Shown here piece after piece: positions 9,109-41,005 of a stretch of DNA of 41,005 bases (position 1 is its first letter; each line of letters starts with the position of its first letter). The position numbers were made by a program, and so were the translations under genes. The notes below the pieces were generated by a model, which had not been told where the DNA came from, made no database searches, and was given only the letters and a program-made list of their open reading frames with translations. Origin of the DNA: Planctomycetota bacterium (GTDB taxonomy: Bacteria; Planctomycetota; Phycisphaerae; UBA1845); NCBI GenBank assembly GCA_030616775.1, contig JAUWWQ010000038.1, forward strand, positions 1 to 41,005, in the 5' to 3' direction.

Positions 9109-11022
9109 CTAATTGCGGTCTCCCTGTCTGGACCGGATTTCCGCCAACTTGGCCGCCGCTTGGGCATCATCCGGTCTGATGCGCAGCCCGGCAGCGTAGT
9201 GTAGAGCAGCCTGTTCGAGTCGTCCGAGTGACAGGAAAGCGTCGCCCAATCTGATATGCGTGTCTGCCGAGTCTGGATCCACCTCCAGCCACTGCTTGTA
9301 ATGATGGATTGCTTCTTCATACTCGCCGGCTCCAGCCAGTGCGATGCCAAGGTCGTAGTGCGCCCCTTTCAGTCTGGGATCGACGCGCAGGGCTGCCTTT
9401 GAATGGGCGATGGCCTCGGCGAACCGGCCTGTCCTGGCAAAGCTGGAACCCAGGTAAAAGTGGGCTGCGGCGTGATCGGACTTGATCCGAAGGGCGTGCG
9501 TAAACCGGCCAATTGCCTTCTCCATCTGGCCGTCCAGATAGAGCGCCAATCCCAAGTTGTACACCGTGCCGAGTTCGTTGGGCTGTAGACGCGCAGCTTC
9601 GGTATAGTGCACGATGGCTTCTTCGTGCCGCCCTCGAGCGTATAATGTTTGAGCCAGAAACACATGCGCCGGAGCGTTATCCGAGGTGACCTTCAATGCG
9701 TGCTCAAACAGCGTCACACTGTCGCGCCAATAGCCGACCTGCAGCCAGGTTACTATCATCGACGCACCGATGCACGCACTACCCACACCTCCCAGGATGA
9801 CCCTTCGGACCCGCGTCCGACGCCCTGAGTCGCCAATCCCCCAAGCGATCATCACAAAGATGCCCACAAGGGGCACATAGGTGTAACGATCCGCCATTGC
9901 CTGTGATCCGACCTGGACCAGCCCGATCACCGGTACCAGCGTCCCTAGGTACCAGAGCCAACCGACGATCAGGTAAGGGCGGGTCCGTCTCACCTGGATT
10001 GCCACAGCCGTGACAGCAGCCAGCAGCAGGACCGCTCCGGCTACGTGCAAACCCGGCGCGGCCTGATATGAGTGCGGATAATACACCGCCAGACCAGCCG
10101 GCCAGACCGTCTTCCCAAGATAGCAGACGTAGGCAATCAGGGCGTTGCTCAAACGGGCATCCAGAGAGATCAGCGCTGAACTGGCAACCGCGCCGCCGTG
10201 CTTCTGTGCCAGTATCGTCATAACGCTCGATGCCGCCGCCAGCGCGATGAGTGGAAGTTTCTCCCGGATCAGCCGCCACCACGTTTGCAGCGCCCCTCCC
10301 TGCTCGCATTTGGTTCGTTCGAATCGCCCGAGCGGCCAGTAGTCCAGAAGTAGCATTACGCACGGCCAGGTAACCAGCATCGGCTTGGCCATCAGCCCTA
10401 GCGCTAGAAGAATCGCCACAAGCCAATAGCGGCCGGCGACCGGTCGCTCCGTATATCGTACATATGCAAGCAGTGTCAGAAAACCGAAGAACGTGCTCAG
10501 AACGTCTTTCCGTTCCGCTATCCAGGCCACCGATTCGACGTGAAGTGGATGTACGGCGAACAAGGCGGCAACAAACGCACTGGCCCATATGCTCTTTGTC
10601 ATCCGATTCAAGACGACGAAGAGCAACCACACGGCGGCACAATGCAACAGAAGATTCGTGAGGTGGTGCCATCCTGCGTCAGTGCCAAACAGTTGGCAAT
10701 CGAGCATGTGCGACAGCCAGGTGAGCGGGTGCCAGTTCGACGCGTGCGTCGTGGTGAATGCCCAGGCCACACCTTCGGCGCTCAACCCGGCAAGCACCTT
10801 GGGGTTCTCCGTGACATAGGCGCGGTCGTCGAGGCGGATATACTCGTGCCTAAGCACCTGTGAATAAACCGCCAACGTACCTACGATCAGAAGCACGCTT
10901 ATAATAGTGCTGAGCCGCGGGTCTACGCCCGCGTGAACGTCGTCGGAGCTTGAATCCTGCAGCGGACGAAGGACCGGGCCGGCGCTCTTTCCTTTGGAAC
11001 TGCCTTTACGTCGTTTGGGCAT
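9109..11022 (-). CDS. GT-C-like multi-pass membrane protein with C-terminal TPR repeats
   Basis: This 637-aa protein opens with a basic tail (MPKRRKGSSKGK) followed by about ten transmembrane helices from residue 38. The first extracytoplasmic loop carries RLDDRAYV with Asp65-Asp66, and then WHPLTWLSH (97-105) and HVESVAWIAERKDVL (161-175), the conserved features of TMTC/DUF1736-type GT-C glycosyltransferases that use lipid-linked sugars. From about residue 435 there are five tandem TPR units with the usual A/G/P spacing. Related planctomycete proteins are common and usually annotated only as TPR proteins. A glycosyl-transfer role is inferred from the fold signature, and the acceptor is unknown. 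GGAG precedes ATG. Confidence 0.82.
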   Translation of the reverse strand: MPKRRKGSSKGKSAGPVLRPLQDSSSDDVHAGVDPRLSTIISVLLIVGTLAVYSQVLRHEYIRLDDRAYVTENPKVLAGLSAEGVAWAFTTTHASNWHPLTWLSHMLDCQLFGTDAGWHHLTNLLLHCAAVWLLFVVLNRMTKSIWASAFVAALFAVHPLHVESVAWIAERKDVLSTFFGFLTLLAYVRYTERPVAGRYWLVAILLALGLMAKPMLVTWPCVMLLLDYWPLGRFERTKCEQGGALQTWWRLIREKLPLIALAAASSVMTILAQKHGGAVASSALISLDARLSNALIAYVCYLGKTVWPAGLAVYYPHSYQAAPGLHVAGAVLLLAAVTAVAIQVRRTRPYLIVGWLWYLGTLVPVIGLVQVGSQAMADRYTYVPLVGIFVMIAWGIGDSGRRTRVRRVILGGVGSACIGASMIVTWLQVGYWRDSVTLFEHALKVTSDNAPAHVFLAQTLYARGRHEEAIVHYTEAARLQPNELGTVYNLGLALYLDGQMEKAIGRFTHALRIKSDHAAAHFYLGSSFARTGRFAEAIAHSKAALRVDPRLKGAHYDLGIALAGAGEYEEAIHHYKQWLEVDPDSADTHIRLGDAFLSLGRLEQAALHYAAGLRIRPDDAQAAAKLAEIRSRQGDRN

Positions 11023-24635: not shown

Positions 24636-26132
24636 TCACGCCCCAGCTGCGGTTGCTCCGGTCGCGGCCTCGGGCGGGAGCGCCAGAGCGGGCAGCTCGT
24701 CGATTGCTCCGGCCACGTCGAGCAGCTTCGGATCGGTATAGATGTTCGCGGTCAGCTCGGGCTTGGAATGTCGCATCGCGGCCTGAGCCGTACGAAGCGG
24801 AACGCCCGCGGCGCACAGGTGGGTGCCGAAGGTCACTCGGAGCGCGTGAACATCGACGACGCGGTTTCGCTCGTCACGCTTGGGGATGCCTGCGGCCGCC
24901 AAGTCGCGGTCGAGGATGCGCGTCAGCCCAGAGGGGATGTGGAACAAGGGAGTAGACGCCGGCAGGCGCGCCGGTATCGGCTTCCCACTCTTGCGGGCTT
25001 GTTTCTGCAATTCGCCGAGCCGCTCCCCAAGCCACCACGACAGCTCCGTCGCCACGTCCGCTCTCAGAGGGATGTTCGAGCCCTGGCGGTTTTTCTCGTC
25101 AGCAGCATTCAGGACGGCGTACGCCACGGGGCTACCGAAGTCGAGTTGTCCTACGGTCAGCGACGCCAACTCACCCTTCCTCAGGCCGGTCAAAACGAGC
25201 GTCTTGTACATCAACGCACGCTCACGCCCGGTCCGTTCACGCCGGGCGATCAGATCAGGATTGTTCTTCAGGGCCACCCGTGCCCGCTCCACGGCCGCGT
25301 CGATGTTTTCGACGGTCAACGGTTCGCGCTTCCACGTGGCCCGGCTTTTCGGCGGTCGCTTGGGATCGGCCTTCGTCGGGGTGATCTCGCGGCCGAACTC
25401 AGCCAGAGGGCGCATGCGGGCGATCTTGAGCAAGCGCATCATCTCCCCCTCCGTGAGCGCCCGGCGGTGATGTCGGCGGTCCACGTTCGGGTTGGCCCTG
25501 GGAACGTCGGCGAAGGGGTTACGCGTCAGCCGGTGCGTGCGGCGGCACCAGTTGCCGAAACAGACGACGGCTTCGCGGTAGGAGTTGCGGGTCGATGCGG
25601 CCATACCGGCGTCGGCCTGTTCGACGAGCCAGTGCTCGATAGGACCGGCGGACATCTTGTTGAGACGGGTGAAGCGGCAATCACGAGCCAGCCGCTCGAG
25701 TCGACGGCGAAGCATCGAGATGCGGCGTGGATTGCCCCCCTTGGCGCGGAGATGTCGTTCGTAGGCGTCGAGGTGCCGGGAGAGTGGCGCTCCGGCATGG
25801 TTGGCTGCATCACCCTCAGCCACGGTCATCACACCGGCCCGGATGAGTTCAGCGTGTCGCTCAAGCTGGGTAAGCACCGCCCGCGCTGCAACCTCGTCGC
25901 GGCATCCCGTGGCGATCTCGACCATCTCACCACTTCCATCGCGGTAGCGGGCCATGTAGAGCCGAGACCGGCCGCGAACGCGGAGCTTGCCGTCCTTACA
26001 ATCGACCACCTCCGCCGACCGAAGTTGCCCGTTCCGCAGCTGCCAGCGGGCGACCCGCTGACCGTTACGCTCGCTGATTTCCGCACGGGGCGGCACCGGC
26101 ATCGTGTACTGTTTGTGGAAGATCATACCCAT
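24636..26132 (-). CDS. int: Tyrosine recombinase (island integrase)
   Basis: This 498-aa phage-type integrase has an N-terminal arm-binding region, a SAM-like core-binding domain (about 115-210) and a catalytic domain (from about 225). The active-site residues are all present: Arg318 (TGLRKGEL), Lys347, His429 and Arg432 (HALR), His455 (MRHS) and the nucleophile Tyr465 (ANIYTD). A charged insert near 250-300 separates the core-binding and catalytic parts, as in other planctomycete integrases. The gene points towards tRNA-Gly, about 1 kb away, the expected position for a tRNA-targeting island integrase. ATG 26132 or 26126 are alternative starts. Confidence 0.93.
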   Translation of the reverse strand: MGMIFHKQYTMPVPPRAEISERNGQRVARWQLRNGQLRSAEVVDCKDGKLRVRGRSRLYMARYRDGSGEMVEIATGCRDEVAARAVLTQLERHAELIRAGVMTVAEGDAANHAGAPLSRHLDAYERHLRAKGGNPRRISMLRRRLERLARDCRFTRLNKMSAGPIEHWLVEQADAGMAASTRNSYREAVVCFGNWCRRTHRLTRNPFADVPRANPNVDRRHHRRALTEGEMMRLLKIARMRPLAEFGREITPTKADPKRPPKSRATWKREPLTVENIDAAVERARVALKNNPDLIARRERTGRERALMYKTLVLTGLRKGELASLTVGQLDFGSPVAYAVLNAADEKNRQGSNIPLRADVATELSWWLGERLGELQKQARKSGKPIPARLPASTPLFHIPSGLTRILDRDLAAAGIPKRDERNRVVDVHALRVTFGTHLCAAGVPLRTAQAAMRHSKPELTANIYTDPKLLDVAGAIDELPALALPPEAATGATAAGA

Positions 26133-26195
26133 GCGTCAGATCCCGACCCGGGCCCATCCCGGATTCCCCCACTCAGCCTCAACTCGCCAAGAAGC

Positions 26196-26372
26196 TCAAG
26201 GCGATTTCCCGCCTGTTTTCGGTCTTTTCCCCGCTGCGGCGATGCCGTCGTCTGCTGCGGAACTGGAGCGAGGTAACCTGCCGATACCATTCGAAGTCAC
26301 CTGTCCCCTTGGGCTTCCGGTTTCTATGACCGCCTGCTTCGGGCCTTTGGGTTCGCCCCACGAAAACTCCAT
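26196..26372 (-). CDS. Possible small ORF upstream of the integrase (58 aa)
   Basis: ATG 26372 is preceded by GGAGGGG at good spacing and opens a 58-codon frame (MEFSWGEPKGPKQAVIE...) ending at TGA 26196. The peptide is Gly/Ser/Lys-rich without a recognisable domain, and another frame across the same DNA is also open, so coding status is uncertain. It sits between the primase and integrase genes on their strand. Confidence 0.25.
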   Translation of the reverse strand: MEFSWGEPKGPKQAVIETGSPRGQVTSNGIGRLPRSSSAADDGIAAAGKRPKTGGKSP

Positions 26373-26387
26373 AGCCCCTCCGAGGGC

Positions 26388-26452
26388 ACTGACAAAACTG
26401 ACAGATTAGGGTCATGCACTGCCTCTCAGGGGGATTTGTCAGTTTTGTCAGT
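26388..26452. repeat. Perfect 16-bp inverted repeat at the primase 3' end
   Basis: ACTGACAAAACTGACA (26388-26403) and its exact reverse complement (26437-26452) are separated by 33 bases. Each arm is itself a direct repeat of CTGACA. The right arm lies inside the primase gene and encodes TDKTDK of its last residues. Without a T-tract it is not an ordinary terminator. Position and internal iteration fit a binding or replication-origin site used by the island's primase. Confidence 0.7.
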
Positions 26453-28786
26453 TCCCCCGGGCCGCCTGCGCCGCAATTTCGGATTGGCCTGATATCGCGT
26501 CCGGGAGCGTGTCCGAGTCGACTGTTCGACTTCGGCCAGCCAATCCAGATCGCACAAAACCTCTACGGCGCGGGCCGCGGCATCGCGCGTACACAGGCCG
26601 ATCCAGCCCTTGCGGTAGACATCGCGAAGGGCGAACTCGGCCGGCATCTCGCCTAAGATGATCTTTTTCGCCAGCGCGATCGCTTCGGCCGTGTCTGGGG
26701 CGACAGCGACCGAGAAGATGCGGCGAGCGTGCGACTCGAGGTACCTGCCCCACTCGATTGCCCGCTTGAGAGAATCGACGTCGACCGGACCTGTGCGCCC
26801 CTCTGCCAGATGACACAGCAGGGCAAGCGTCGGAATCAAACTGCGGTACTTGGCCAAGTGTGAGACCATGACCAGGTGCTCCTCGCCTGATCGCAGCCGA
26901 TGTTCAAGCTCTCCTCGCCATTCATCGAAACGATCCTGTGCCTCGGGATCAAAACGCAGGTAAGGGATTGCGTCGTCATCGGAGTGGGCGCCGACCGCCG
27001 AGGGTTCCAGTCGATCCAGTGTGCGGATCACCTCGAATGCCCGGTTCTTCGCATCAGTGTCCGGCCAACGGTCTACATTCCGCCACGTTTTAGAGATATC
27101 CGGGTAGACGGCCAACTGGAAGCGCTGCATCAGCCCGTCTGCGTCTACGTCGCCCGACACCGCGCCGCGCAGATAGCTTCGCAGCGGTCCAGGCTGAATC
27201 GAGCCGATCAGCGAAACACTCGCTGCCTCGATGTCGATCGTGCCCCGGCCGATGCGATCGTAGGTATAGCGTCCCGTTCCGTTCCAAGCTTCTAGATAGA
27301 AGGAGCGCGCGCCCTCCTGCCCCTCTTTGTCCAAGGACTTCAACAGGCCAATCAACTCGTCGCGGTATGAGAGCACGCCGTTGGGATTCTCGTTGAGGAT
27401 TTCTCCGAGCTTTTCGACGGTTGCATCGTTGACGAGGTAGCGTCTGCGGACGGGTGGTGCTGTGTCATCATGCATCGCGTCACGAGCGGCCGCGAGTGGA
27501 TCACCGCCTTCACTTGTCAGGGCTTTCTTGATTGCGGTCTTCGCGAGTTGCTTCCGTTGATCGGCGACGAGTTGGCGCGCCTCAAATCCCTGCATCTCCG
27601 CGTCGAATTCTCTCTTCGCTTCGATCTCCAGTCGCTTCAGCGGCTTGAGTGGCTCCTGGGTCGCCGGCGTTTTCATCACACTCGGCGGGCCGATTGGCGC
27701 ACCCCACAGGTTGGGAACCACTATCCAGTCATCACGCCGCTTGGGCCGGATGCCGACCTTACGACCGACAACCGTGGCAAGCGTGATCATTGCGGCAATC
27801 GCGGGGAAGTCGGGCGGGCACTGCACGCGCTCTGCGATATCCTGTATCCACGGTCGTAGGGACGACGGGAGCAGATCGAACTCAAAGGGCGCGACGGGTG
27901 GGAGTTCGTCAGGAAGCCGCTGTGGTTCGGGCCAATGAGCAAGTGGCACGTCGGGTTCGTTCGGTGGTTCGTACTCCGGCGTTCTCGCGATGAGCGCCAT
28001 GATCTCCGCTTTGGTCTCGTCAGCTTCGCGCGAGTCTCGATCCTCGTTGATGAAGTCGTGGAGGTCCTCGGCTTCGCCGAGCCTGGGCAATTCGACGATC
28101 TTCACGCTGCCAGCAGGATTGAGCGATTTGAGCTGCTTAGCGACCTCCTTCGCGTACTGCTCCCCCGGCTCATCGTGGTCTGGCAGGATTACGACGTCGC
28201 GCCCGCGCAAACTGGTCCAATCGGCGGACCGCGCCGAGACTGCCGCGCCACTCGTCACGCACGGCAGGCCGATCGACCACCCCGCGTCACAAGGCTTCTC
28301 GCCTTCGCACACAACGATGATTCCGTCAGGTGGCAGCTCACCCACACGATAGAGGGGATGAGGCTTCGGTGGGCCACGCAGCGCCCAGCCGGTGCCGCTC
28401 AGTGTGATCTCGCAAAAGGTCTTACCATCTGGCAACCGGATGCGCGCGCGGCACCAATCGTCGGACCAGCGATAGACTCTCTCGACGCTGCCCCCCTTCC
28501 AGCGTGCGAAGCTCTCCGCGGCGGCCTCGGGGGAATCAAAAATGCGTGGGCGCTTAGCGATCGCTGCAGACGTGCGGCCACTTGTGGACTGCTGATCTTG
28601 CGGGCGCCGATAGACTGCGAAACCGGAGGGCGTCTTTGCAAGGCGCGTAAATCCGTTCACCTCCGGCTCGTCGACCCGATGACACTCGTGCGCGCCATCA
28701 GCCGTGCGCCGACACCAGTCTCCTTTCCCACAGATGATGCACGGCTCGCGGGGGTCAACCGGTCGAAAGGAGTGGGGCTCATTCAT
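26426..28786 (-). CDS. Toprim-DUF3987 primase/helicase-like replication protein
   Basis: This 786-aa protein has a Cys/His cluster near the N-terminus (CIICGKGDWC...CHR, a CHC2-like zinc finger). A Toprim domain follows, with the acidic Glu in VVCEGEKPCDA and the DxD-type ILPDHDEPGE. From about residue 290 it is a DUF3987 domain, an ATPase related to phage and plasmid primase-helicases, with a Walker-A-like GPPSVMKTPA. Such proteins prime replication of satellites and integrated elements. I start it at ATG 28786, which overlaps the stop of the upstream HTH gene as ATGA; a start 36 bases earlier would overlap that gene more. The last residues lie within an inverted repeat. Confidence 0.85.
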   Translation of the reverse strand: MNEPHSFRPVDPREPCIICGKGDWCRRTADGAHECHRVDEPEVNGFTRLAKTPSGFAVYRRPQDQQSTSGRTSAAIAKRPRIFDSPEAAAESFARWKGGSVERVYRWSDDWCRARIRLPDGKTFCEITLSGTGWALRGPPKPHPLYRVGELPPDGIIVVCEGEKPCDAGWSIGLPCVTSGAAVSARSADWTSLRGRDVVILPDHDEPGEQYAKEVAKQLKSLNPAGSVKIVELPRLGEAEDLHDFINEDRDSREADETKAEIMALIARTPEYEPPNEPDVPLAHWPEPQRLPDELPPVAPFEFDLLPSSLRPWIQDIAERVQCPPDFPAIAAMITLATVVGRKVGIRPKRRDDWIVVPNLWGAPIGPPSVMKTPATQEPLKPLKRLEIEAKREFDAEMQGFEARQLVADQRKQLAKTAIKKALTSEGGDPLAAARDAMHDDTAPPVRRRYLVNDATVEKLGEILNENPNGVLSYRDELIGLLKSLDKEGQEGARSFYLEAWNGTGRYTYDRIGRGTIDIEAASVSLIGSIQPGPLRSYLRGAVSGDVDADGLMQRFQLAVYPDISKTWRNVDRWPDTDAKNRAFEVIRTLDRLEPSAVGAHSDDDAIPYLRFDPEAQDRFDEWRGELEHRLRSGEEHLVMVSHLAKYRSLIPTLALLCHLAEGRTGPVDVDSLKRAIEWGRYLESHARRIFSVAVAPDTAEAIALAKKIILGEMPAEFALRDVYRKGWIGLCTRDAAARAVEVLCDLDWLAEVEQSTRTRSRTRYQANPKLRRRRPGGTDKTDKSP

Positions 28787-29019
28787 CCCGCCGTGCCCTT
28801 CGCGGACCGGATCGGCTGGCACCCGCCTTCAAGCCAGCTCATCAGCTCGGCACGCCGCCATCGCACCAGGCTGCCCAGCTTGATCGGAAGCGGCATTTGA
28901 CCGGCGTCTGCCAGTCGGTAAATGTGGCGGGGCGAGCACCCCAGCAGCGACGCGACGGCCTTCACGCCCAGCAACTCCGCGGAAACGACTGGCGGCGCTT
29001 CCGGTGCTCTTTCGTTCAT
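28783..29019 (-). CDS. AlpA/excisionase-like helix-turn-helix protein
   Basis: The 78-aa protein has the excisionase-family winged HTH: VKAVASLLGCSPRHIYRLADAGQMPLPIKLG, then SLVRWRRAELMSWLEGG. Such proteins bind the attachment region as recombination directionality factors or act as regulators. The gene overlaps both neighbours by ATGA, joining it to the upstream HTH gene and to the primase. As the second HTH in tandem it may be a regulator while the other is the excisionase, or the reverse. Confidence 0.85.
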   Translation of the reverse strand: MNERAPEAPPVVSAELLGVKAVASLLGCSPRHIYRLADAGQMPLPIKLGSLVRWRRAELMSWLEGGCQPIRSAKGTAG

Positions 29020-29228
29020 GGCCGCACCCCCGCGGCACGGGCCGCCTCGTATTCATCGCGTGAGACGCATCCCAGCCGGACCCACTCGTTTAGGTCCGAT
29101 TTGCGCCAGCGGACCGACCTAGAAAGCCTCAGAGGCTCGGGCATTCGCCCGGACGCAAGCAGCTTCCATACCTGTCGTGGGCTGACTTTAAGACGCAATG
29201 CTACTTCTCGTACCGTAAGCAGCTCCAT
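29016..29228 (-). CDS. Excisionase-family helix-turn-helix protein
   Basis: This 70-aa protein has the same winged-HTH layout as its downstream neighbour: TVREVALRLKVSPRQVWKLLASGRMPEPLRL, then SVRWRKSDLNEWVRLG. The two share the VRWR..L pattern but are clearly diverged. ATG 29228 is preceded by GGGGAG at 7-base spacing; an upstream TTG is in frame but lies within the ribosome site itself. It heads the coupled HTH-HTH-primase operon of the island. Confidence 0.83.
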   Translation of the reverse strand: MELLTVREVALRLKVSPRQVWKLLASGRMPEPLRLSRSVRWRKSDLNEWVRLGCVSRDEYEAARAAGVRP

Positions 29229-29417
29229 CGAATCGCTCCCCAAAAGTAAGCATCCGAGCCGGACTGTCGACCAGCACTAACAGGGATGATACGCGAGCGC
29301 ACGGGCAGGGATTGGTTAGGGCGATTTATTTCCGGCGCTCACATCAAAGGGAACACAAAGGAATGGCCAGGAAGGCCGAAGAACTGGGCGCCGGAATTTA
29401 TTTGGAGGGCTTGACGC

Positions 29418-30029
29418 CTATTTCTTTCCGTCGCCGTTGCGACGTTTCCGCTCGCGGTCGATCGCCTGCTTGAACGCTAGTCTGGTGCAGCCTTTTGCCT
29501 TTCCGGCTTCGGCAAATGTGTTGAATCGACCTGACATCCACAGTCGCCAACAGCTGCGATCGAAGGTCCTGTCCGTATCGCCGCTGCCCTTTGGGCGGCC
29601 CCGTTTGCGCTTGGCCTTTGTATAGCGGTCGACAAGTTCGAGCAGACGACAAACGCGATCTCGTGCCTGAATGAACCGCTTAGGAAACTCAATGTCACAG
29701 ATTACAGAGTCTTCGGCGGCAATACCCTTGTAGGCAGTGCGGATACATTCGATATCGCCTGACAGACTCTTTTGGCTCAGCACCAGCTCATGGAGTGCCT
29801 TGTCAAGAGCACGTACCGCCAGCGCATGTCCCGACCACCTCTCACCCAGATCGGCTTGAGCCTCCAACCGATTGAACGAGCTGACCAGCTCACATACTGC
29901 ATCACGGGCATCGTCCATCGCAACCGCGAGGCTCTGAGACCATCGGCTATCCGATAGCACAAGTCTTTCAGGCACGTCCAGTCCCTTACACCGGGCCGGA
30001 CCGGCTTGGCCGATGAGGGGCTGTTTCAC
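29418..30029 (-). CDS. Hypothetical protein with AT-hook-like motif
   Basis: This 203-aa protein has no family that I recognise. The central part is mainly helical and heptad-like (about 35-140), suggesting a coiled coil. It is followed by KRKRGRPKGSG, an AT-hook-like DNA-binding signature (GRP core). A C-terminal segment, FNTFAEAGKAKGCTRLAFKQAIDRERKRR, reads like a resolvase-type helix-turn-helix. I infer a DNA-binding accessory protein of the island. The start is GTG without a strong ribosome site. It may be transcribed with the HTH genes downstream (spacing about 190 bases). Confidence 0.6.
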   Translation of the reverse strand: MKQPLIGQAGPARCKGLDVPERLVLSDSRWSQSLAVAMDDARDAVCELVSSFNRLEAQADLGERWSGHALAVRALDKALHELVLSQKSLSGDIECIRTAYKGIAAEDSVICDIEFPKRFIQARDRVCRLLELVDRYTKAKRKRGRPKGSGDTDRTFDRSCWRLWMSGRFNTFAEAGKAKGCTRLAFKQAIDRERKRRNGDGKK

Positions 30030-30119
30030 CGACGCACCCAGTCCGTCGAACGGAAGCGACCCGCAACTCGGAGACTAGTCAACAACTGAGTCTCTGATTG
30101 TTCTTGCTGCCAGCCATTT

Positions 30120-30242
30120 CTAAATCACCGTGCGCGATTACGCGCCGCTTTTCCGAGCCGCGAGCGCCAGCGACCGGTCATTGGTCCCGCGCTCGCGCTT
30201 GGGGCTCGGATTACTGGCGCCTGATCGCGCACTGTCGTTTAG
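30120..30242. repeat. Palindromic element (~123 bp, MITE-like)
   Basis: The element folds on itself along nearly its whole length: GTGCGCGATTACGCGCC (30130-30146) pairs with 30216-30232 at 14 of 17 positions. CCGAGCC (30153-30159) pairs with 30203-30209, and GCGAGCGC (30160-30167) pairs with 30189-30196. Outer ends CTAAA and TTTAG continue the match imperfectly. No open frame crosses it. It could be a non-autonomous transposable element, a REP/BIME-type repeat or a structured RNA. Confidence 0.65.
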
Positions 30243-30255
30243 TAGCCGACGTCGT

Positions 30256-31092
30256 TCACTGTGACGAGGTACTTGACTGAGGTACTTCGTCTGGCGTTCG
30301 TTCCTTGGCTTTTTGCGCTTTGAGTATCTCTTCCCCGCGCGGCTGCCAGTGATCCAGCACGATCGGTCCGGGATCGCGATCGGAACAAGCGGCGACAAGT
30401 TCAAAATCATCAAACTCTCCGTTTGCCGCTGCCACTTTGATCCCCAACTTCACCCATCGCCCGAAGCCAATTCCTTCCATCTTCCCATCTAGGTCGTTGG
30501 AGTCCGCGGCCGCAAAGAGTGGGCGGCCTTCGCTGAGCACAATCACCTCTGCAATTCGGTCGGCGTTGTCGCTTGGAATGTCAAGAAACTTTCCGTCCAT
30601 CGCCGAGTGATCGGACCACCGAAGCAAGAAACTCTCGCCTCGATGAGAATGGACAGAAGGATAGCAATGTGGGTTGTTCATGACGTAACCAAAGTGCAAT
30701 GGGAATGCATCCATTAGTCGCACGGAACATCCGTTGAGCGTACGTCCGCTGAGGTTGCGGATCGCCAGGCGCGCAGTTACTCCATCGGTCTGTGGCCGGG
30801 CTAGTGTATCCCCGCAAATCGGGCGAATTTCAAAACGCGGTTTTCTCCAAAGCCGAACCAGGGTTGGCCAGTAAGGTAAGCCAAACAGCAAGCCAATTAC
30901 CGCCAAAGGAAAAAACGGATGCGTGATGACTTTCCAGGTATGGCCGAGCAGCGACAAGGCAGTCTGCGCTTGCCCTACAGCGTTCAAAACCCAGTTGATG
31001 ACAGGCAGAGATACAGCAACCGCCAACGCCGCGAATCTAAATGTCGGATGCGAACGAACCCACCCAACGATTCTCTGTGGTACCCCATTCAT
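30256..31092 (-). CDS. Two-helix membrane protein of unknown function
   Basis: The 278-aa protein has two hydrophobic helices (about 17-38 and 56-75) close to the N-terminus, followed by a ~200-residue soluble domain with beta-rich character (FEIRPICGD, RLAIRNLSGRTLNGCSVRL). The domain has an immunoglobulin-like look but I do not recognise the family. ATG 31092 avoids a 100-base overlap with the nuclease relic upstream; a longer start would add no conserved sequence. It lies downstream of the restriction locus on the same strand and could be an accessory defence gene or unrelated cargo. Confidence 0.6.
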   Translation of the reverse strand: MNGVPQRIVGWVRSHPTFRFAALAVAVSLPVINWVLNAVGQAQTALSLLGHTWKVITHPFFPLAVIGLLFGLPYWPTLVRLWRKPRFEIRPICGDTLARPQTDGVTARLAIRNLSGRTLNGCSVRLMDAFPLHFGYVMNNPHCYPSVHSHRGESFLLRWSDHSAMDGKFLDIPSDNADRIAEVIVLSEGRPLFAAADSNDLDGKMEGIGFGRWVKLGIKVAAANGEFDDFELVAACSDRDPGPIVLDHWQPRGEEILKAQKAKERTPDEVPQSSTSSQ

Positions 31093-31105
31093 ATCAGCAT
31101 CTTCG

Positions 31106-31531
31106 TTACCGACCCTGGCTGGTGGCGTGCTTGGCCAGCAGTCCGGGGATGTCTGCCGGATCGAACGACACATCCCACGCCCACTGGCCGAAGCCACCGT
31201 GCTCGTTGACGGCCTTCACCCACTCGGCCAAGAACTCCCGCTTGGTGCGGTTCTGCTGGGTGTCCTGCCCCTTGACCTCCAGAACGAGCATCTTGCCCGT
31301 GGCCAAGCGGATCAGGAAGTCTGGGCGGTACTTCTGCACTACCCCCTTGAAGACATACATGATCTCGAAGCCGAGGTGGTCGTTCTTCACCCACGCCGTG
31401 ACATGCTTGTTCCATTCCATCTCAAACGCCTCGGTCGCTTCCCATGTGCTGTCGCATACGCAATGGCTGATGTGCGACCGCTGTGTCACGTCGCAGGGCT
31501 TCGCCGTGTACCATGAGCGCATATCCCCCAT
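31106..31531 (-). pseudogene. C-terminal fragment of a BPTD_3080-type restriction endonuclease
   Basis: The 141-residue frame matches only the end of the large (~950 aa) helicase-nuclease subunit: MRSWYTAKPCDVTQRSHISH, then NDHLGFEIMYVFKGVVQKYRPDFLI, then MLVLEVKGQDTQQNRTKREF. The PD-(D/E)XK triad (RPDFL and EVKGQ) is intact. Family resemblance continues about six codons upstream of the ATG (PIRCMGDM), then three stop codons (TGA TAA TGA) close the frame, so the rest of the gene is lost. Motif details differ from the nuclease domain of the neighbouring intact Res. Family assignment is from memory of the conserved segments. Confidence 0.78.
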
Positions 31532-31595
31532 GCAGCGGATCGGGTGTTTGTGCGCGCCGACGCGTCATTATCACGCACACACGCTGCAGTCACCC

Positions 31596-34277
31596 CTAAT
31601 CCTTGTACTCTCTGAATCCTTCCCATAACTGCTTGAAGGATTTGGGTTGGTACTTGTCAAAGCTCGCTTCGTCAACGTATACGAAGTCAAACAACGCGTC
31701 CGTTTGAATTCGGTTGACGTCCTCGCACCATTGTCGCAAGCGTTCCATTTTTGGAGGTACATCCAGATCCTCCTGACCCTTGGTCTCGACCACGACAATC
31801 CGCCTGTCAGACAGCTTGACTAGGAAGTCCGGGTAGTAGTTCGATATGCTTCCGTCCGCGTTGACATAATCCAGCTTGAAATGCACCGCCAAGTAGTTCT
31901 TAGCATAGGACACAACATCACTGCACTCTTCCAAGAAGCTCGCGAAGCGAAGCTCCAGACGGTTGTCACCAATGATGCGGTTGAAGACGCTCTTCTTCGG
32001 GACCAGGTATTCCCGGTCTTTGGTGACAAAGGGTCGAGTCTGACGCAGCTTGATGGTGTCTCGTATTTCGGCATCGCCCCTGTCCTGTACGGTCAAGGCA
32101 TTGATGGCCTTCTTGAAGGTTTCAAGCAAAGTCTTGGTCGCAGCGAGTTCGGAAAGGTTGCGCAGCGTGTTGGGATGATCAAGGTCTACTTCCCGGTCGA
32201 ACAGATCGTTCTGGACGAAAGCCTTGACCTTGCCATACAGAACATCGTAGCCGCCAACAAGCCGAAGGTCTTTCATCATCGTCTTGGTGAAATAACCGAT
32301 CACGCTGCGGTAGTCGGCAACACCGGCCGTGTCGAGAATCGTGGTGTGGGTCACTTCGCCGGTGGTCATGTCCTTGAAGACGATCTCCCGCTGCTGTTCT
32401 TCGCTGAATTGCTGATAAATCTGCCGCTGATGCCCCATCGCACTCACGTTCAAATCGGCAAGATTCTTGTATTCCCTGTAAATCCGTGGGGTCAGCACAG
32501 GGATTTCAATGTCCAGCGCGCCGATGTCCTTCTTCTCATTCGCGTTGTCAACCTCAACGACCAACGGTGCTTTAGGTTTAGTCCCTTCGCCCATCGCCTT
32601 GCGTTCGAGTTCCACGCCCTCGGCCTGAATCGACTCGACAAACTCCATGAACGCATCCGTGCCGACGACGCTGACTTGTTCCTCTAAGCCTCCCGGATAC
32701 ATCTTTCGTAAACCGCGACCGAGGGTCTGCTCCGGCAAGATGTTGCTCTTGGCCGCGTACGGGCGCAGCCCGACGATGGTGGTAACATTCTTCACGTCCC
32801 AGCCTTCCTTGAGCATCATTACCGATACGATCGCCTTGTACGGGCTATCCGATCCGTCGATGTTGTTGGCCTGCTTGCGGAGTTTGTCCAGCTCGTCCTT
32901 GGCCTTGCCCGACGCCGCTTCGGAAATCTCGCCGTTGTTCTTGGTGTGAATGACCAACACCGCGCCCTTCAAGTCGGAGTGGTGGTCTTCCAGGTACTCG
33001 GCCACCTCATCGCAATTGCGCGTGTCGTCCGTCATCACGAAGAGGATGGATTTCTTGCCGACTTTCTCGTGTTCGGCATACGCCTTACGCCATTCGATCA
33101 CACCAAGATCAAGATAGTCTGCGTACTTCTCTGTGAACTTCGCGCTCTGTCGTTCGGCCAGCTTTGCCCGGCTGGGCGCGTCGGGTAACACCGGATGCTT
33201 CACCACGTTCTGCGAAATCGCTTCCACCAACGGGTAATCGGCGACGGTCTGCACAAAAATCGCGCCGTTGTTGTGCTTCGGTGTCGCGGTCGTATCCACC
33301 TGCAAGGACAGTTCTCCGCCCTTCTGGAGCAAACGATTATGGATGTCCTCGATCGACTTAAACCATGCCATGTTCTTGTCATGGATATGATGCGCTTCGT
33401 CATTCAGCACGACCAGCTCGTCGATGTCGCGCACGATCATTCCCAGGTCCACCTTGGAGTCGGTGGTCGCCCCCGTAGGACGCTTGCCGAGAAAGTAGTC
33501 CATCGTATCTTCATCGTCGGGGCCGGGCGAAATGTCGTCGCCTGCGTAGACGCGGTGAATGTTGGTCAGGAAGATGTTGCCGGTGGGTCGCGTCACGCGC
33601 ACCTCGTCTTGCAGGTGCAGCGTGAGTTGAAAGTCATCCCGCCAGTTGCGCCCCTCGAAGCCGTTGTCCGGGATAACCGGGTCTTCAAAGAAGATGCGCA
33701 GCCCCTGAAAGTCCTTGTAGATGCGGTCAAGCACGATGATGTTCGGCGTAATCACCAGAAAGTTGCGAGCCAACCCCGACTCAGGCTCGTACAGCTTGTG
33801 GTAGAAGCTCCACGCCAGCACCAAGCTCATCACCTTGGTCTTACCCGATCCGGTGGCCATCTTCACCACGAAGCGACGCCAAGTCTCGTCAAACATCCCG
33901 GCTGACACCGCGCCTGAGCTATCGAAACGCATCAGGTCGTACTTATCCTTCACGCCCACGACGTCGTACAGATAGACGATTGTCTCCAGCGCCTCCCGCT
34001 GGGCGAAGTAGTATTGAAACTCCGCCATCGCAGTGTCCGATTGGTCTAGCAGGTGCGGCGCAATGAACCACCAGTTCAGCAGGCTTCTGCTCGTGTCCGC
34101 CGCCCCGACGTACCCGCCGTCGCGGAATTCTTTAACCTTTCGGCGAAGCTGCGACACCAGTGGCGGCATCAGCTTGTCACTTGTCGTCTCGCGTAGCGCC
34201 TCGTCTGCGGGGAACCAGCGAACCGAAGGGTCGAGGATCGCGTGCGGTGATTCGGGGAAGTCGGGGTGCAGGGCCAT
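31596..34277 (-). CDS. res: Type III restriction endonuclease subunit Res
   Basis: This 893-aa helicase-nuclease cuts DNA after ATP-driven communication between two unmethylated sites, in complex with Mod. Superfamily 2 motifs are visible: Walker A ATGSGKT (141-147), DEAH (293-296), TATP, and the motif VI region QTLGRGLRK. The C-terminus has the PD-(D/E)XK endonuclease YYPDFLVKL...VVVETKGQ at about 812-832. The ATG overlaps the mod stop codon by one base (TAATG), so translation is coupled; longer open sequence upstream is within mod in another frame. Appears intact. Confidence 0.93.
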   Translation of the reverse strand: MALHPDFPESPHAILDPSVRWFPADEALRETTSDKLMPPLVSQLRRKVKEFRDGGYVGAADTSRSLLNWWFIAPHLLDQSDTAMAEFQYYFAQREALETIVYLYDVVGVKDKYDLMRFDSSGAVSAGMFDETWRRFVVKMATGSGKTKVMSLVLAWSFYHKLYEPESGLARNFLVITPNIIVLDRIYKDFQGLRIFFEDPVIPDNGFEGRNWRDDFQLTLHLQDEVRVTRPTGNIFLTNIHRVYAGDDISPGPDDEDTMDYFLGKRPTGATTDSKVDLGMIVRDIDELVVLNDEAHHIHDKNMAWFKSIEDIHNRLLQKGGELSLQVDTTATPKHNNGAIFVQTVADYPLVEAISQNVVKHPVLPDAPSRAKLAERQSAKFTEKYADYLDLGVIEWRKAYAEHEKVGKKSILFVMTDDTRNCDEVAEYLEDHHSDLKGAVLVIHTKNNGEISEAASGKAKDELDKLRKQANNIDGSDSPYKAIVSVMMLKEGWDVKNVTTIVGLRPYAAKSNILPEQTLGRGLRKMYPGGLEEQVSVVGTDAFMEFVESIQAEGVELERKAMGEGTKPKAPLVVEVDNANEKKDIGALDIEIPVLTPRIYREYKNLADLNVSAMGHQRQIYQQFSEEQQREIVFKDMTTGEVTHTTILDTAGVADYRSVIGYFTKTMMKDLRLVGGYDVLYGKVKAFVQNDLFDREVDLDHPNTLRNLSELAATKTLLETFKKAINALTVQDRGDAEIRDTIKLRQTRPFVTKDREYLVPKKSVFNRIIGDNRLELRFASFLEECSDVVSYAKNYLAVHFKLDYVNADGSISNYYPDFLVKLSDRRIVVVETKGQEDLDVPPKMERLRQWCEDVNRIQTDALFDFVYVDEASFDKYQPKSFKQLWEGFREYKD

Positions 34278-36406
34278 TACTTCTTCCCTCCGTTCTTGCT
34301 GTTTTTCCGCACGGTCACTTCCACGATGGTCATCGTGTCGGTTCCGAAGATGTCCACTACCTTCACCGCCAACTTCCGCCGTCCGGGTTTGCACACGTGG
34401 AACACGCTCGTGAGTTCCAGCGTGCGATCCTTCTTCGTCCGAAACGATTGCCATTCGTTCTCGAAGATGAAGTCACCCGTCCAGGTCTCCTCCCACTCGT
34501 CGGTCGCCTCGTTCTTCACTCGGACGATTTCCCGTTTGCTCTCGAAGTCGAAGTCCACCGCCCAGTAGTCGATCCAGTCCGTCCATTTCTCGGTGAGCAC
34601 CTCGCGGTTGACGATTCCCTTGGCGTCCTTGCTCACCTTCACGATCTGCCCCTTCTCGACCACGATCCGGCTTCCCTTCTTCTTGATGGCCTCCTCAGCG
34701 TTGGCGATCGAGTCCTGCGAGTAGAACACCGAAAAGTCCGTCAGCTCCACGGCCACGCTGCTCTTCTTGACATGCGGCTTGACCTCAATGAACGACACGT
34801 CGTGGAACACGACCTGATTCTTCTCGACAGCCCGCTTGTCGAACACCTCAGCCGGGATGTATTTGGGGGCGATGTCGATGCCCTTGGCACGGGCTTCGTC
34901 CAACACATTGGGAAACAAGCCCATCTCGAACTCAAAGCCCAGGATGTCCACCTTGGTGATGTGATTCTTGCGGCATTCGAGGATGATCTCTTCCACGAAC
35001 AGCCGCGTCACCGGCAGGTTGACCGGCCCCACCGCCACCAGCCGTCCCGCCTTCTTGCCGTGGAACGCGGTATAGCCATCAGTCTTTTCAGCCCGGTACG
35101 CGCGAAGGATCAGATCGAGGAACGCGGCCTCTTTCTCTTCGATCTGCTTACGCTGCTGTTCCTCGCGCAGGTCGGGGTTGACGCCGATGTAGTGCTGCCG
35201 CTCGTACTTACCCAGGTTGAGAATCTCGAACGCGCGGTAGTCCTTGCCGTCCTCCTTGAGTTGTCGCTGCACGCCGATCATCCGCTTGCGGGTCGTGTGG
35301 ATGGCGAACTTGCCCAAGTCGCTGACGATCCACTTGCGGCCTAGCTTTTCGGCCACCGCCGCCGTCGTTCCGGAACCGCAGAAGAAGTCGGCTACGAGGT
35401 CGCCTTCGTTGGACGAGGCTTTGATGATTCGTTCGAGCAGCTTCATTGATTTCTGTGTTGGGTACCCTAGTGACTCCCCAGGGTATCGTGTTGCCCTTTG
35501 AATATCTAGCCAATAGTCTTCTGGCACCTTACCACCTTCATTGAGTTCGATGCTATCAAAGTCCATTCCTCCTTTGGCGATGACGTTTCTGTTCGCTCTG
35601 TCAATGCTTCCTTCTGCGTAAGGAATACGAATTGCATCTTTGTTGAAAGTCCATTCAGTACCCTTAGCGTAGAAGTAGATTGTGTCGTGCTTTCTTGGGA
35701 AGTTGCCGCTGACGTTGCTTGCGCCTGTCGTACACCAGGCAATTTCATTAACCAAATGCCCTTTGCCAAATATTTCGTCTAGAACAAGGCGCACAAAGCT
35801 GTTCACGCGATAGTCACAATGCACGTAGATGCTCCCATCCTCGGCGAGCAAGTCACGCATGAGAACGACCCGCTCGAAGATCATGGCAATGAAGGACTCT
35901 GCACCCTTGCCCCAGGTGTCGCGGTAGGCGATTTCTTCGAGGATGTTGGGCTTCTTGGTGAAGGTGTCGCCACCGATCTCGATGTCCATGGAGAAGTCAG
36001 CCCCCACGTCGAACGGCGGGTCGATGTAGATCAGCTTCAAACCGCCTTGCTTCTCGATCTCCTCGTGCAACGGCCCGTTCTTGAGCGATGACAGGATCAG
36101 CTTGTTGTCGCCCCAGATCAGCTTGTTGGTCCAGCCCTTGAGCTGCCGTCCACGCTCGTCCAGGCTGAACAGCAAGCCCTGATCGTCTTTTCGCTTGGTG
36201 TCTGTTTCCGCACGGGGTTCATCCACATGCTCGATGGTCTGAAAGGGCAGGACGATGTTGCAGATCTCGTTGGTCTTGCCGTTCCAGACCAGTTCCACCT
36301 CCCGCTTTTCGTCGAAGAGCAGAAAGCGGTACTTGTCGGGCAGGGGCTTGCCGGCTTCGAGGAACCGGATGATGTCTTGCTGTTCCTGGTCGGTCAGTCG
36401 TGGCAT
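34277..36406 (-). CDS. mod: Type III DNA-adenine methyltransferase subunit Mod
   Basis: This 709-aa N6-adenine methyltransferase recognises the target for both modification and restriction. The catalytic motif DPPF is at 129-132 and precedes the SAM-binding motif FCGSGTT (about 340-346), the beta-group order of type III Mod proteins. Between them lies the target recognition domain (about 205-300), whose DNA is clearly poorer in G+C than its flanks. The long C-terminal half (from about 500) is the Res-interaction and accessory region. TAAGGAGGA sits at ideal distance before the ATG. The first ~60 residues (DKYRFLLFDEKREVELVW) are family-typical. Confidence 0.93.
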   Translation of the reverse strand: MPRLTDQEQQDIIRFLEAGKPLPDKYRFLLFDEKREVELVWNGKTNEICNIVLPFQTIEHVDEPRAETDTKRKDDQGLLFSLDERGRQLKGWTNKLIWGDNKLILSSLKNGPLHEEIEKQGGLKLIYIDPPFDVGADFSMDIEIGGDTFTKKPNILEEIAYRDTWGKGAESFIAMIFERVVLMRDLLAEDGSIYVHCDYRVNSFVRLVLDEIFGKGHLVNEIAWCTTGASNVSGNFPRKHDTIYFYAKGTEWTFNKDAIRIPYAEGSIDRANRNVIAKGGMDFDSIELNEGGKVPEDYWLDIQRATRYPGESLGYPTQKSMKLLERIIKASSNEGDLVADFFCGSGTTAAVAEKLGRKWIVSDLGKFAIHTTRKRMIGVQRQLKEDGKDYRAFEILNLGKYERQHYIGVNPDLREEQQRKQIEEKEAAFLDLILRAYRAEKTDGYTAFHGKKAGRLVAVGPVNLPVTRLFVEEIILECRKNHITKVDILGFEFEMGLFPNVLDEARAKGIDIAPKYIPAEVFDKRAVEKNQVVFHDVSFIEVKPHVKKSSVAVELTDFSVFYSQDSIANAEEAIKKKGSRIVVEKGQIVKVSKDAKGIVNREVLTEKWTDWIDYWAVDFDFESKREIVRVKNEATDEWEETWTGDFIFENEWQSFRTKKDRTLELTSVFHVCKPGRRKLAVKVVDIFGTDTMTIVEVTVRKNSKNGGKK

Positions 36407-40143: not shown

Positions 40144-40241
40144 CTTCGATCTTGACCTGTGGTCCAGACACCATACCACCGTTAAGCTCGGACCCTACGC
40201 GCATGCTGCGAAGTGCGGAACAGCACGTGAGCAGCGTGGGT

Positions 40242-40949
40242 CTACGCTCCCGTCCAGCTTCGACGGCGCATCGCTTCGATGACGGCTGTTGGGGCGAGGT
40301 GGTCGAGGTAGCGGGCGGTGGTGGTGATGCTGGTGTGGCCGAGTTGGCGGGAGATGATAGCAATGTCGACGCCTTCGGCGCGGAGTTGGGCGGCGTGGGT
40401 GTGGCGGAGGCCGTGGGCGTGGACGCGCTTGTCGATGCCGGCCCTGGCGGCGAGGCGCTTGAGCAGGACACGGATGTAGGCGGCAGCCATGGGGTGACCG
40501 CGTAGCGTGCAGAAGACGGGGTGGCGGCCGCCCAGGCCCAGGCGGGACCGGGCGTCGAGCCAGCGCTCGATGACGACGGCGGCGCCGGGGTCCAGGCCGA
40601 CGGTGCGTGACCGCCCACCTTTGCCGTTGAGCACCCGAATGCAGCCGTCGTTCAGATCGAGGTCCTTGGGGTAGAGGCTGAGGGCCTCGTTGATTCGCAG
40701 CCCGGCGCGGTAGAGCAGGGCGATCAGTGCCCGGTCGCGCAGGCCGGTCGGGGCGTACCGGCCACACGCCTCCATCAGGGCACAGACCTCGTCGTTGGTG
40801 AGGACCTCCGGCGGCAGGCGGCGCTTTGGCTTGGTGGTTGCTGGATGAAGGGTTGGCGGCGGGTTCTTCCTGCATTCCATCTGTGGCGGCAACAGCACTC
40901 GCAACGAGGGTGTTGGAGACTGGCCAGACCGACTGGTTTCCCGGGCCAT
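40242..40949 (-). CDS. Minimal tyrosine recombinase lacking a core-binding domain
   Basis: This 235-aa protein contains a complete tyrosine-recombinase catalytic domain: Arg85 (AGLRINEAL), Lys110 (GKGGRSR), His179 and Arg182 (HGLRH), His205 (QLGH) and the nucleophile Tyr214 (ARYLD). The first ~45 residues are Pro/Arg-rich and disordered, so the usual SAM-like core-binding domain of XerC/D or phage integrases is absent. AGGAG lies nine bases before ATG 40949; an upstream TTG would extend into a palindrome. It is unrelated in domain layout to the island integrase. It may be the integrase of a second element extending beyond the right edge. Confidence 0.85.
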   Translation of the reverse strand: MARETSRSGQSPTPSLRVLLPPQMECRKNPPPTLHPATTKPKRRLPPEVLTNDEVCALMEACGRYAPTGLRDRALIALLYRAGLRINEALSLYPKDLDLNDGCIRVLNGKGGRSRTVGLDPGAAVVIERWLDARSRLGLGGRHPVFCTLRGHPMAAAYIRVLLKRLAARAGIDKRVHAHGLRHTHAAQLRAEGVDIAIISRQLGHTSITTTARYLDHLAPTAVIEAMRRRSWTGA

Positions 40950-40973
40950 TTCCACTATCTCCTTTCGCATACT

Positions 40974-41005
40974 TGAGTTACGCTTTTTATACAAAGCGTA
41001 ACTCA
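40974..41005. repeat. 13-6-13 inverted repeat (lox/dif-like) at the right edge
   Basis: Perfect 13-bp arms TGAGTTACGCTTT (40974-40986) and AAAGCGTAACTCA (40993-41005) flank the 6-base centre TTATAC. The layout resembles tyrosine-recombinase core sites such as lox (13-8-13) and dif (11-6-11). It lies 24 bases before the start codon of a tyrosine recombinase. The last base of the window is the last base of the right arm. Confidence 0.75.
40986..40991 (-). promoter_or_regulatory. -10 element inside the palindrome
   Basis: On the minus strand the palindrome centre reads TATAAA, a good -10. The -35 would lie beyond the window. Transcription would begin near 40979, between the dyad and the recombinase ribosome site. 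A protein bound to the dyad would block this promoter, suggesting autoregulation. Confidence 0.4.

Follow-up and report, generated by a model that had tools for sequence, protein, structure and literature searches.

Is a perfect inverted repeat that lies directly before a tyrosine recombinase gene, at the very end of a contig, the crossover site of that recombinase, its operator, or both at once? The stretch of DNA analysed here (the window, G000:C8:1-41005) is the entire contig C8, 41005 bp long, from a genome of 4.45 Mb in 108 contigs, and it does stop at the outer edge of the dyad, as an earlier note had claimed. The features at this end, all on the minus strand, are as follows.

40203–40241, minus strand: 3′ tail of ~30–40 bp, common to other copies; homology between copies stops here
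40242–40949, minus strand: tyrosine recombinase, 235 aa, with PF00589 in the C-terminal part only and the RKHRH residues and Tyr present
40950–40973, minus strand: leader of 24 nt from dyad to start codon, with the ribosome-binding site GGAG (40959–40962) read by eye
40974–40986, minus strand: proximal arm of the dyad (right arm in gene orientation), TGAGTTACGCTTT as read on the forward strand
40987–40992, minus strand: dyad centre, 6 bp, TTATAC on the forward strand and GTATAA on the coding strand
40993–41005, minus strand: distal arm of the dyad (left in gene orientation), AAAGCGTAACTCA; its outer edge is the contig end

The dyad (40974–41005) has a 13-6-13 structure with no mismatch in either 13 bp arm, and 24 bases separate it from the recombinase ATG (40949, minus strand), both as previously described. 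It has the core geometry of dif/lox-type sites, i.e. inverted arms of ~11–13 bp around a centre of 6–8 bp. The dyad pattern had a single match in the window at up to 3 mismatches and 0 matches in 100 dinucleotide shuffles. Likewise, one dyad with arms of at least 11 and a gap of 0–12 was found in the window, and none in 9 of 10 mononucleotide shuffles. The C8 dyad is not a chance hairpin. It had also been proposed that the contig broke at a repeated or recombining site; the contig does end at the dyad, but the search brought up no contig end to match it. Within this genome the exact arm is confined to C8 and its paralogue on contig C27 (with a 1-mismatch match also in C36), and therefore no overlapping contig end reveals the sequence beyond the C8 dyad. 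In another assembly a contig (L029 position 1, G021:C185 end) also stops within the leader, ~59 bp before the dyad, at the 5′ boundary of the unit.

The C8 recombinase matches PF00589 at 1.8e-40, and residues R85, K110, H179, R182, H205 and Y214 are invariant in 10/10 aligned family members; the protein is by sequence a catalytically complete tyrosine recombinase. Simple tyrosine recombinases are described as a core-binding domain joined to a catalytic domain (PMC8138268). The C8 recombinase departs from this plan, with no domain match to an N-terminal core-binding domain, and the shortest family members (in G315) are 200–202 aa in total. Structure prediction from a 5-row alignment gave a mean pLDDT of 51 and was set aside as too poor. 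Identity as XerC, XerD, XerS or XerA was rejected (132, 132, 69 and 137 bits against NCBIfam cut-offs of 335, 330, 267 and 220), as was identity as an integron integrase (TIGR02249, 90 bits against a cut-off of 265). No cassette array was recognised among the annotated neighbours of family recombinases, no viral relatives of the protein were confirmed in IMG/VR, and tblastn of phages and plasmids with the recombinase returned nothing at ≥60% identity.

A second copy lies on contig C27 of the same genome, with arms identical to those of C8 and a 7 bp centre. Its gene carries an in-frame insertion of ~160 bp (L035, ~9767–9927) that leaves the frame open at 306 aa; the copy in G022 is likewise interrupted at about the same place. 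Contig C7 holds a 3′-terminal fragment of the gene. Of the 13 PF00589 matches in this genome, a dyad with arms ≥9 accompanies only those at C8 and C27; the ten other tyrosine recombinases and the C7 fragment have none, which favours a core site belonging to this recombinase. Matches to the recombinase at E≤1e-40 were found in 9 of 297 relatives and profile matches at E≤1e-55 in 8 of 392 genomes of the phylum, two overlapping sets that both include the genome itself; the named relatives are Phycisphaerae/Phycisphaerales MAGs. A dyad occupies the same place before the gene in 19 copies from 11 genomes (C8, C27, two in bin11 [CP070827.1, G002], G034, two in G021, G015, G022, G013, six in G315, G608, G521 and G190, with G595 left out), again as expected of a core site. 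The six G315 copies sit on contigs C31, C45, C47, C78, C97 and C186, mosaic elements each with a recombinase copy, the direct repeat described below and a different centre. Other observations point away from a core site: a dyad was looked for at the G452 recombinase and none was found, G254 has only a degenerate dyad farther upstream (identified partly by eye), and numerous copies are remnants. Present-day activity is doubtful for several family copies, judging from their sequences. Weaker dyads with other arms, also recognised partly by eye, precede recombinases in SJ353 (L031) and G062 (L020).

The site was then sought without preselected copies. The pattern GTTACGCTTT-N6-AAAGCGTAAC, at up to 3 mismatches, was found at 14 places in 12 genomes, 13 of them directly before a family recombinase, as a core site predicts; it misses diverged arms and the 7 bp centre (C27, G021, G022, G521, G190). 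The fourteenth place (G015:C43) has 3 mismatches and is not at a recombinase, and a control pattern also matched one place in G015. Further copies of the site thus exist beyond C8, both at C27 and among these matches, and the 13/14 that adjoin the family gene led us to discard the idea of a common repeat unrelated to recombinases. With 13/14 of the matches lying at copies of the recombinase gene, no free partner site was found among them. Moreover, a covariance model of the leader, searched against 60 relatives, recovered the full leader at family genes only, besides two short weak matches (G025:C207 and G021:C392). A 12 kb viral contig with portal and terminase genes (L168) has the exact dyad GTTACGCTTT-TGGCTG-AAAGCGTAAC (9947–9972) where a small gene begins, upstream of the terminase genes; a family recombinase was not recognised anywhere on this contig. 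This viral dyad could reflect a borrowed recombinase, or chance.

The arms are GAGTTACGCTTT-like in most of the 19 copies; they are conserved among members of a clade, and differ from clade to clade on both sides at once. In G190 both arms have changed together, to CAGTCGCGCTTT, as would be expected of a core site. Of the 17 copies with enough upstream DNA, 15 have a third copy of the arm, in direct orientation, upstream at -41/-42 or -50 (counted at ≥9/12 matching positions); three of them match modestly (shuffle P ~0.02). The direct repeat is absent from G034 and G190, the other 2 testable copies, which counts against the core-site reading. The third arm copy, together with two spacings that differ by roughly one turn of the helix, favours protein binding to DNA. 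At C8 any such repeat would fall outside the window, because the contig stops at the distal arm.

The centre is 6 bp long in 18/19 copies and 7 bp in one (C27). In gene orientation the centres read GTATAA (C8), GTCGTAA (C27), GTGCAA, GTCCAA, GGTACA, GCCTGA (twice), ACCTGA, GTAGGA (twice), TAGTTA, TGTTGA, TTGCTG, GGGATC, TGTCGA, TGTGAG, CATGTA, CCTGAG and GAAGAG. Most are not palindromic, and a hairpin telomere site was put aside. The three closest G315 copies agree in 7/18 centre comparisons, against ~0.80 at 4-fold sites (P = 1.6e-4 on the assumption of independence, which does not hold for these pairs). This suggests faster-than-neutral change of the centre in one genome, G315, only. The centres of G021a and G021b, however, agree at 6/6 positions with a 4-fold identity of 0.62, and those of G021 and G015 at 5/6 with a 4-fold identity of about 0.4. 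Taken together, these comparisons point to a centre of fixed length under loose sequence constraint. The complete bin11 chromosome holds two dyads with different centres, which argues against a core site. The earlier note had read a -10 box in the centre, from which recombination and expression would exclude each other. The TATAA letters are real but private to C8, the other 18 copies having other centres, and a promoter scan of 40800–41005 found no promoter. The mutual-exclusion mechanism is therefore unsupported as stated, and a -10 box in the centre was rejected as a general feature, promoter scans being empty. A promoter-like TTGCC-N17-TA was seen by eye in the leaders of C8's own family.

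More distant relatives, at 38–40% identity, are encoded by Thermus plasmids. Ten records were examined, among which AP017921 and NZ_AP025159 both represent plasmid pTMY, and in this region pTF24b resembles pTF28b. The Thermus dyad, TTCGCCAAA-N6-TTTTGCGAA, has centres CTGATG, CAAATC, GCAAGC and CGAATC, in keeping with a core site, and directly abuts a -10-like TGnTATACT box. In large plasmids two short genes lie between dyad and recombinase, one annotated VapC in some records, and in pTthSNM6-6b the dyad is altered. One dyad was found in pTMY (complete, 19 kb). ParA genes occur near some of the recombinase genes, as expected of plasmid-maintenance genes.

The Planctomycetota neighbours are, by gene content, those of replicating, integrating elements, known here only integrated or as contigs. 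The order in G021 is a DUF2924 gene, a large serine recombinase, a primase, a ParB-methyltransferase, DUF5681 and a terminase, followed by the leader and recombinase. The gene neighbours a beta clamp in G315, a large serine recombinase in G608, and a primase-helicase and ParB-methyltransferase in G190. Because G021 and G608 have a serine recombinase as a separate enzyme for integration, resolution of multimers or circles would be the most natural role for the tyrosine recombinase. No capsid gene was recognised among the scanned proteins of the G021 element (L042, 3289–14338, ~11 kb), which has the tyrosine recombinase at its end. Elsewhere in the window, genes at 24636–36406, all on the minus strand, include a longer second tyrosine recombinase (24636–26132), a DUF3987 helicase-like protein and a type III restriction-like pair (31596–34454 and 34277–36406), and suggest another integrated element.

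Between copies at unrelated places, homology begins ~60 bp ahead of the dyad and ends ~40 bp beyond the stop codon. In several remnants just the 3′ part of the gene survives, in others just internal pieces; the bin11 copy at 1.836 Mb is internally deleted, and at its left edge it adjoins sequence that matches other loci to within a few bases of the leader. In G315 the module precedes a common block in one element and follows the same block in another. These patterns suggest that the recombinase module may be a mobile unit in its own right. Homologous terminase sequence precedes the unit in G021, G034, G022 and G013, so part of the homology pattern is explained by the unit having kept its place within a larger element. 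Empty sites for two bin11 copies were sought in G000 and G001, without a clean one. It seems unlikely that the unit (direct repeat, dyad, recombinase and 3′ tail, ~0.75–0.9 kb) itself moves between or within larger elements, with its centre rewritten on moving to serve as a private compatibility tag that would block recombination between sister copies of one genome.

Several known systems resemble this arrangement. TnpI/IRS of Tn4430 likewise has an inverted core pair and direct repeats near the recombinase gene. It resolves transposon cointegrates and lies beside a Tn3-type transposase, an enzyme not seen among the examined neighbours of the Planctomycetota recombinases. The arms of loxP are of 13 bp, as in the C8 dyad, but its spacer is of 8 bp, lox is distant from cre and Cre has a core-binding domain, unlike the C8 recombinase. 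As described for phage P1, Cre/loxP keeps a plasmid-like element monomeric by means of an element-encoded recombinase (PMC2409434). The Planctomycetota recombinase is similarly encoded by its element. With XerS/difSL and XerH/difH the module shares a single recombinase, inverted arms and a short centre. According to PMC5357621, the xerS gene directly adjoins difSL as one module, difSL has an 11 bp centre and imperfect arms, XerS is a chromosomal protein of 356 aa, and large plasmids carry a recombinase beside its site. The Planctomycetota module differs from XerS/difSL in its 6 bp centre, perfect or near-perfect arms, protein of 202–235 aa, location in mobile elements and direct arm repeat. 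The pdif sites of Acinetobacter plasmids are reported to have conserved arms around variable 6 bp spacers and to recombine mostly between identical spacers (PMC13141974). The conserved arms and variable centres of the Planctomycetota dyads are similar, which by analogy would leave copies with unlike centres little able to recombine with each other; pdif differs from the C8 dyad in its asymmetric XerC/XerD arms, its use of host recombinases and its several sites per plasmid.

We consider it probable that the dyad is the adjacent recombinase's own dif/lox-like core crossover site, with two subunits on its arms, probably resolving or circularising the element and overlapping the control region of the gene. 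This draws on features present in the sequences themselves: the dyad, its linkage, the fixed length and variable sequence of the centre, the co-changing arms, the direct repeat and the intact catalytic residues. The earlier note had suggested that the dyad could be crossover site and operator at once; the crossover part is supported by the family linkage, the fixed-length variable centre and the third arm, and an operator role is plausible from the position in the leader and the Thermus box. Were the dyad an operator only, the recombinase or another element protein would repress the gene there and recombination would occur elsewhere, for example at the element ends, the right one being placed ~40 bp beyond the recombinase stop. 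The dyad does lie in the leader of every copy and abuts TGnTATACT in Thermus, a 3′ boundary past the gene is common to many copies, and there is a precedent in MrpR, a tyrosine-recombinase relative that reportedly serves as a phage repressor. However, 13 bp arms with a fixed 6 bp centre are the geometry of a crossover site, and catalytic residues intact in 10/10 aligned members are unlike a pure repressor; we find this alternative rather unlikely.

The dyad could instead function at the RNA level, forming a stem and variable loop that would tune translation of the recombinase. Its pairs are mostly kept (of 247 cells, 201 are Watson-Crick, 15 GU, 8 CA and 23 other) and a second hairpin is predicted in the leader, but GU exceeds CA by just 15 to 8 cells, or 6 to 4 distinct events, with no clear GU preference; 0/17 predicted pairs changed on both sides among eight close copies, and an Rfam search gave no match. 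The direct repeat and the promoter-side location in Thermus need DNA recognition and so favour a DNA site, making an RNA hairpin distinctly improbable. Tn916 picks up a coupling sequence from its last target, and the arms here might similarly be the ends of a small recombinase unit with the centre as coupling sequence. The G315 trio (7/18 against ~0.80, with the non-independence given above) and the 7 bp centre of C27 would fit such a joint, but ~50 bp to the left of the dyad is conserved between copies, so that the arms are not the unit ends, and the G021a/b centres agree fully (6/6) at a 4-fold identity of 0.62. We regard this joint as very unlikely.

Under the core-site reading, two recombinase subunits would bind the two 13 bp arms in inverted orientation and exchange strands across the 6 bp centre, as at dif or lox, with the third, direct arm 41/42 or 50 bp farther out (~four or five helical turns) a probable accessory binding site. 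Carried inside replicating, integrating elements, the module would most likely resolve multimers or circular forms and not serve insertion. As the site overlaps the gene leader, the bound recombinase would probably lower its own expression. Binding, recombination, multimer resolution and autoregulation by the recombinase at the dyad are in each case what we infer.

A search of open-access papers found nothing on this recombinase family. The module is real and conserved, a recombinase joined to its site, and is most likely a dif/lox-like single-recombinase resolution system. It resembles the resolution systems known from plasmids and chromosomes, and as far as that literature reaches its family looks undescribed. 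If so, Planctomycetota elements would gain a compact, self-contained module whose recombinase is unusually short, and a naturally occurring set of sites differing mainly in the 6 bp centre. Two older questions could then be tested directly with the G315 paralogues from one genome: to what extent the centre sequence restricts which sites can pair, and whether a crossover site can control the recombinase that acts on it.
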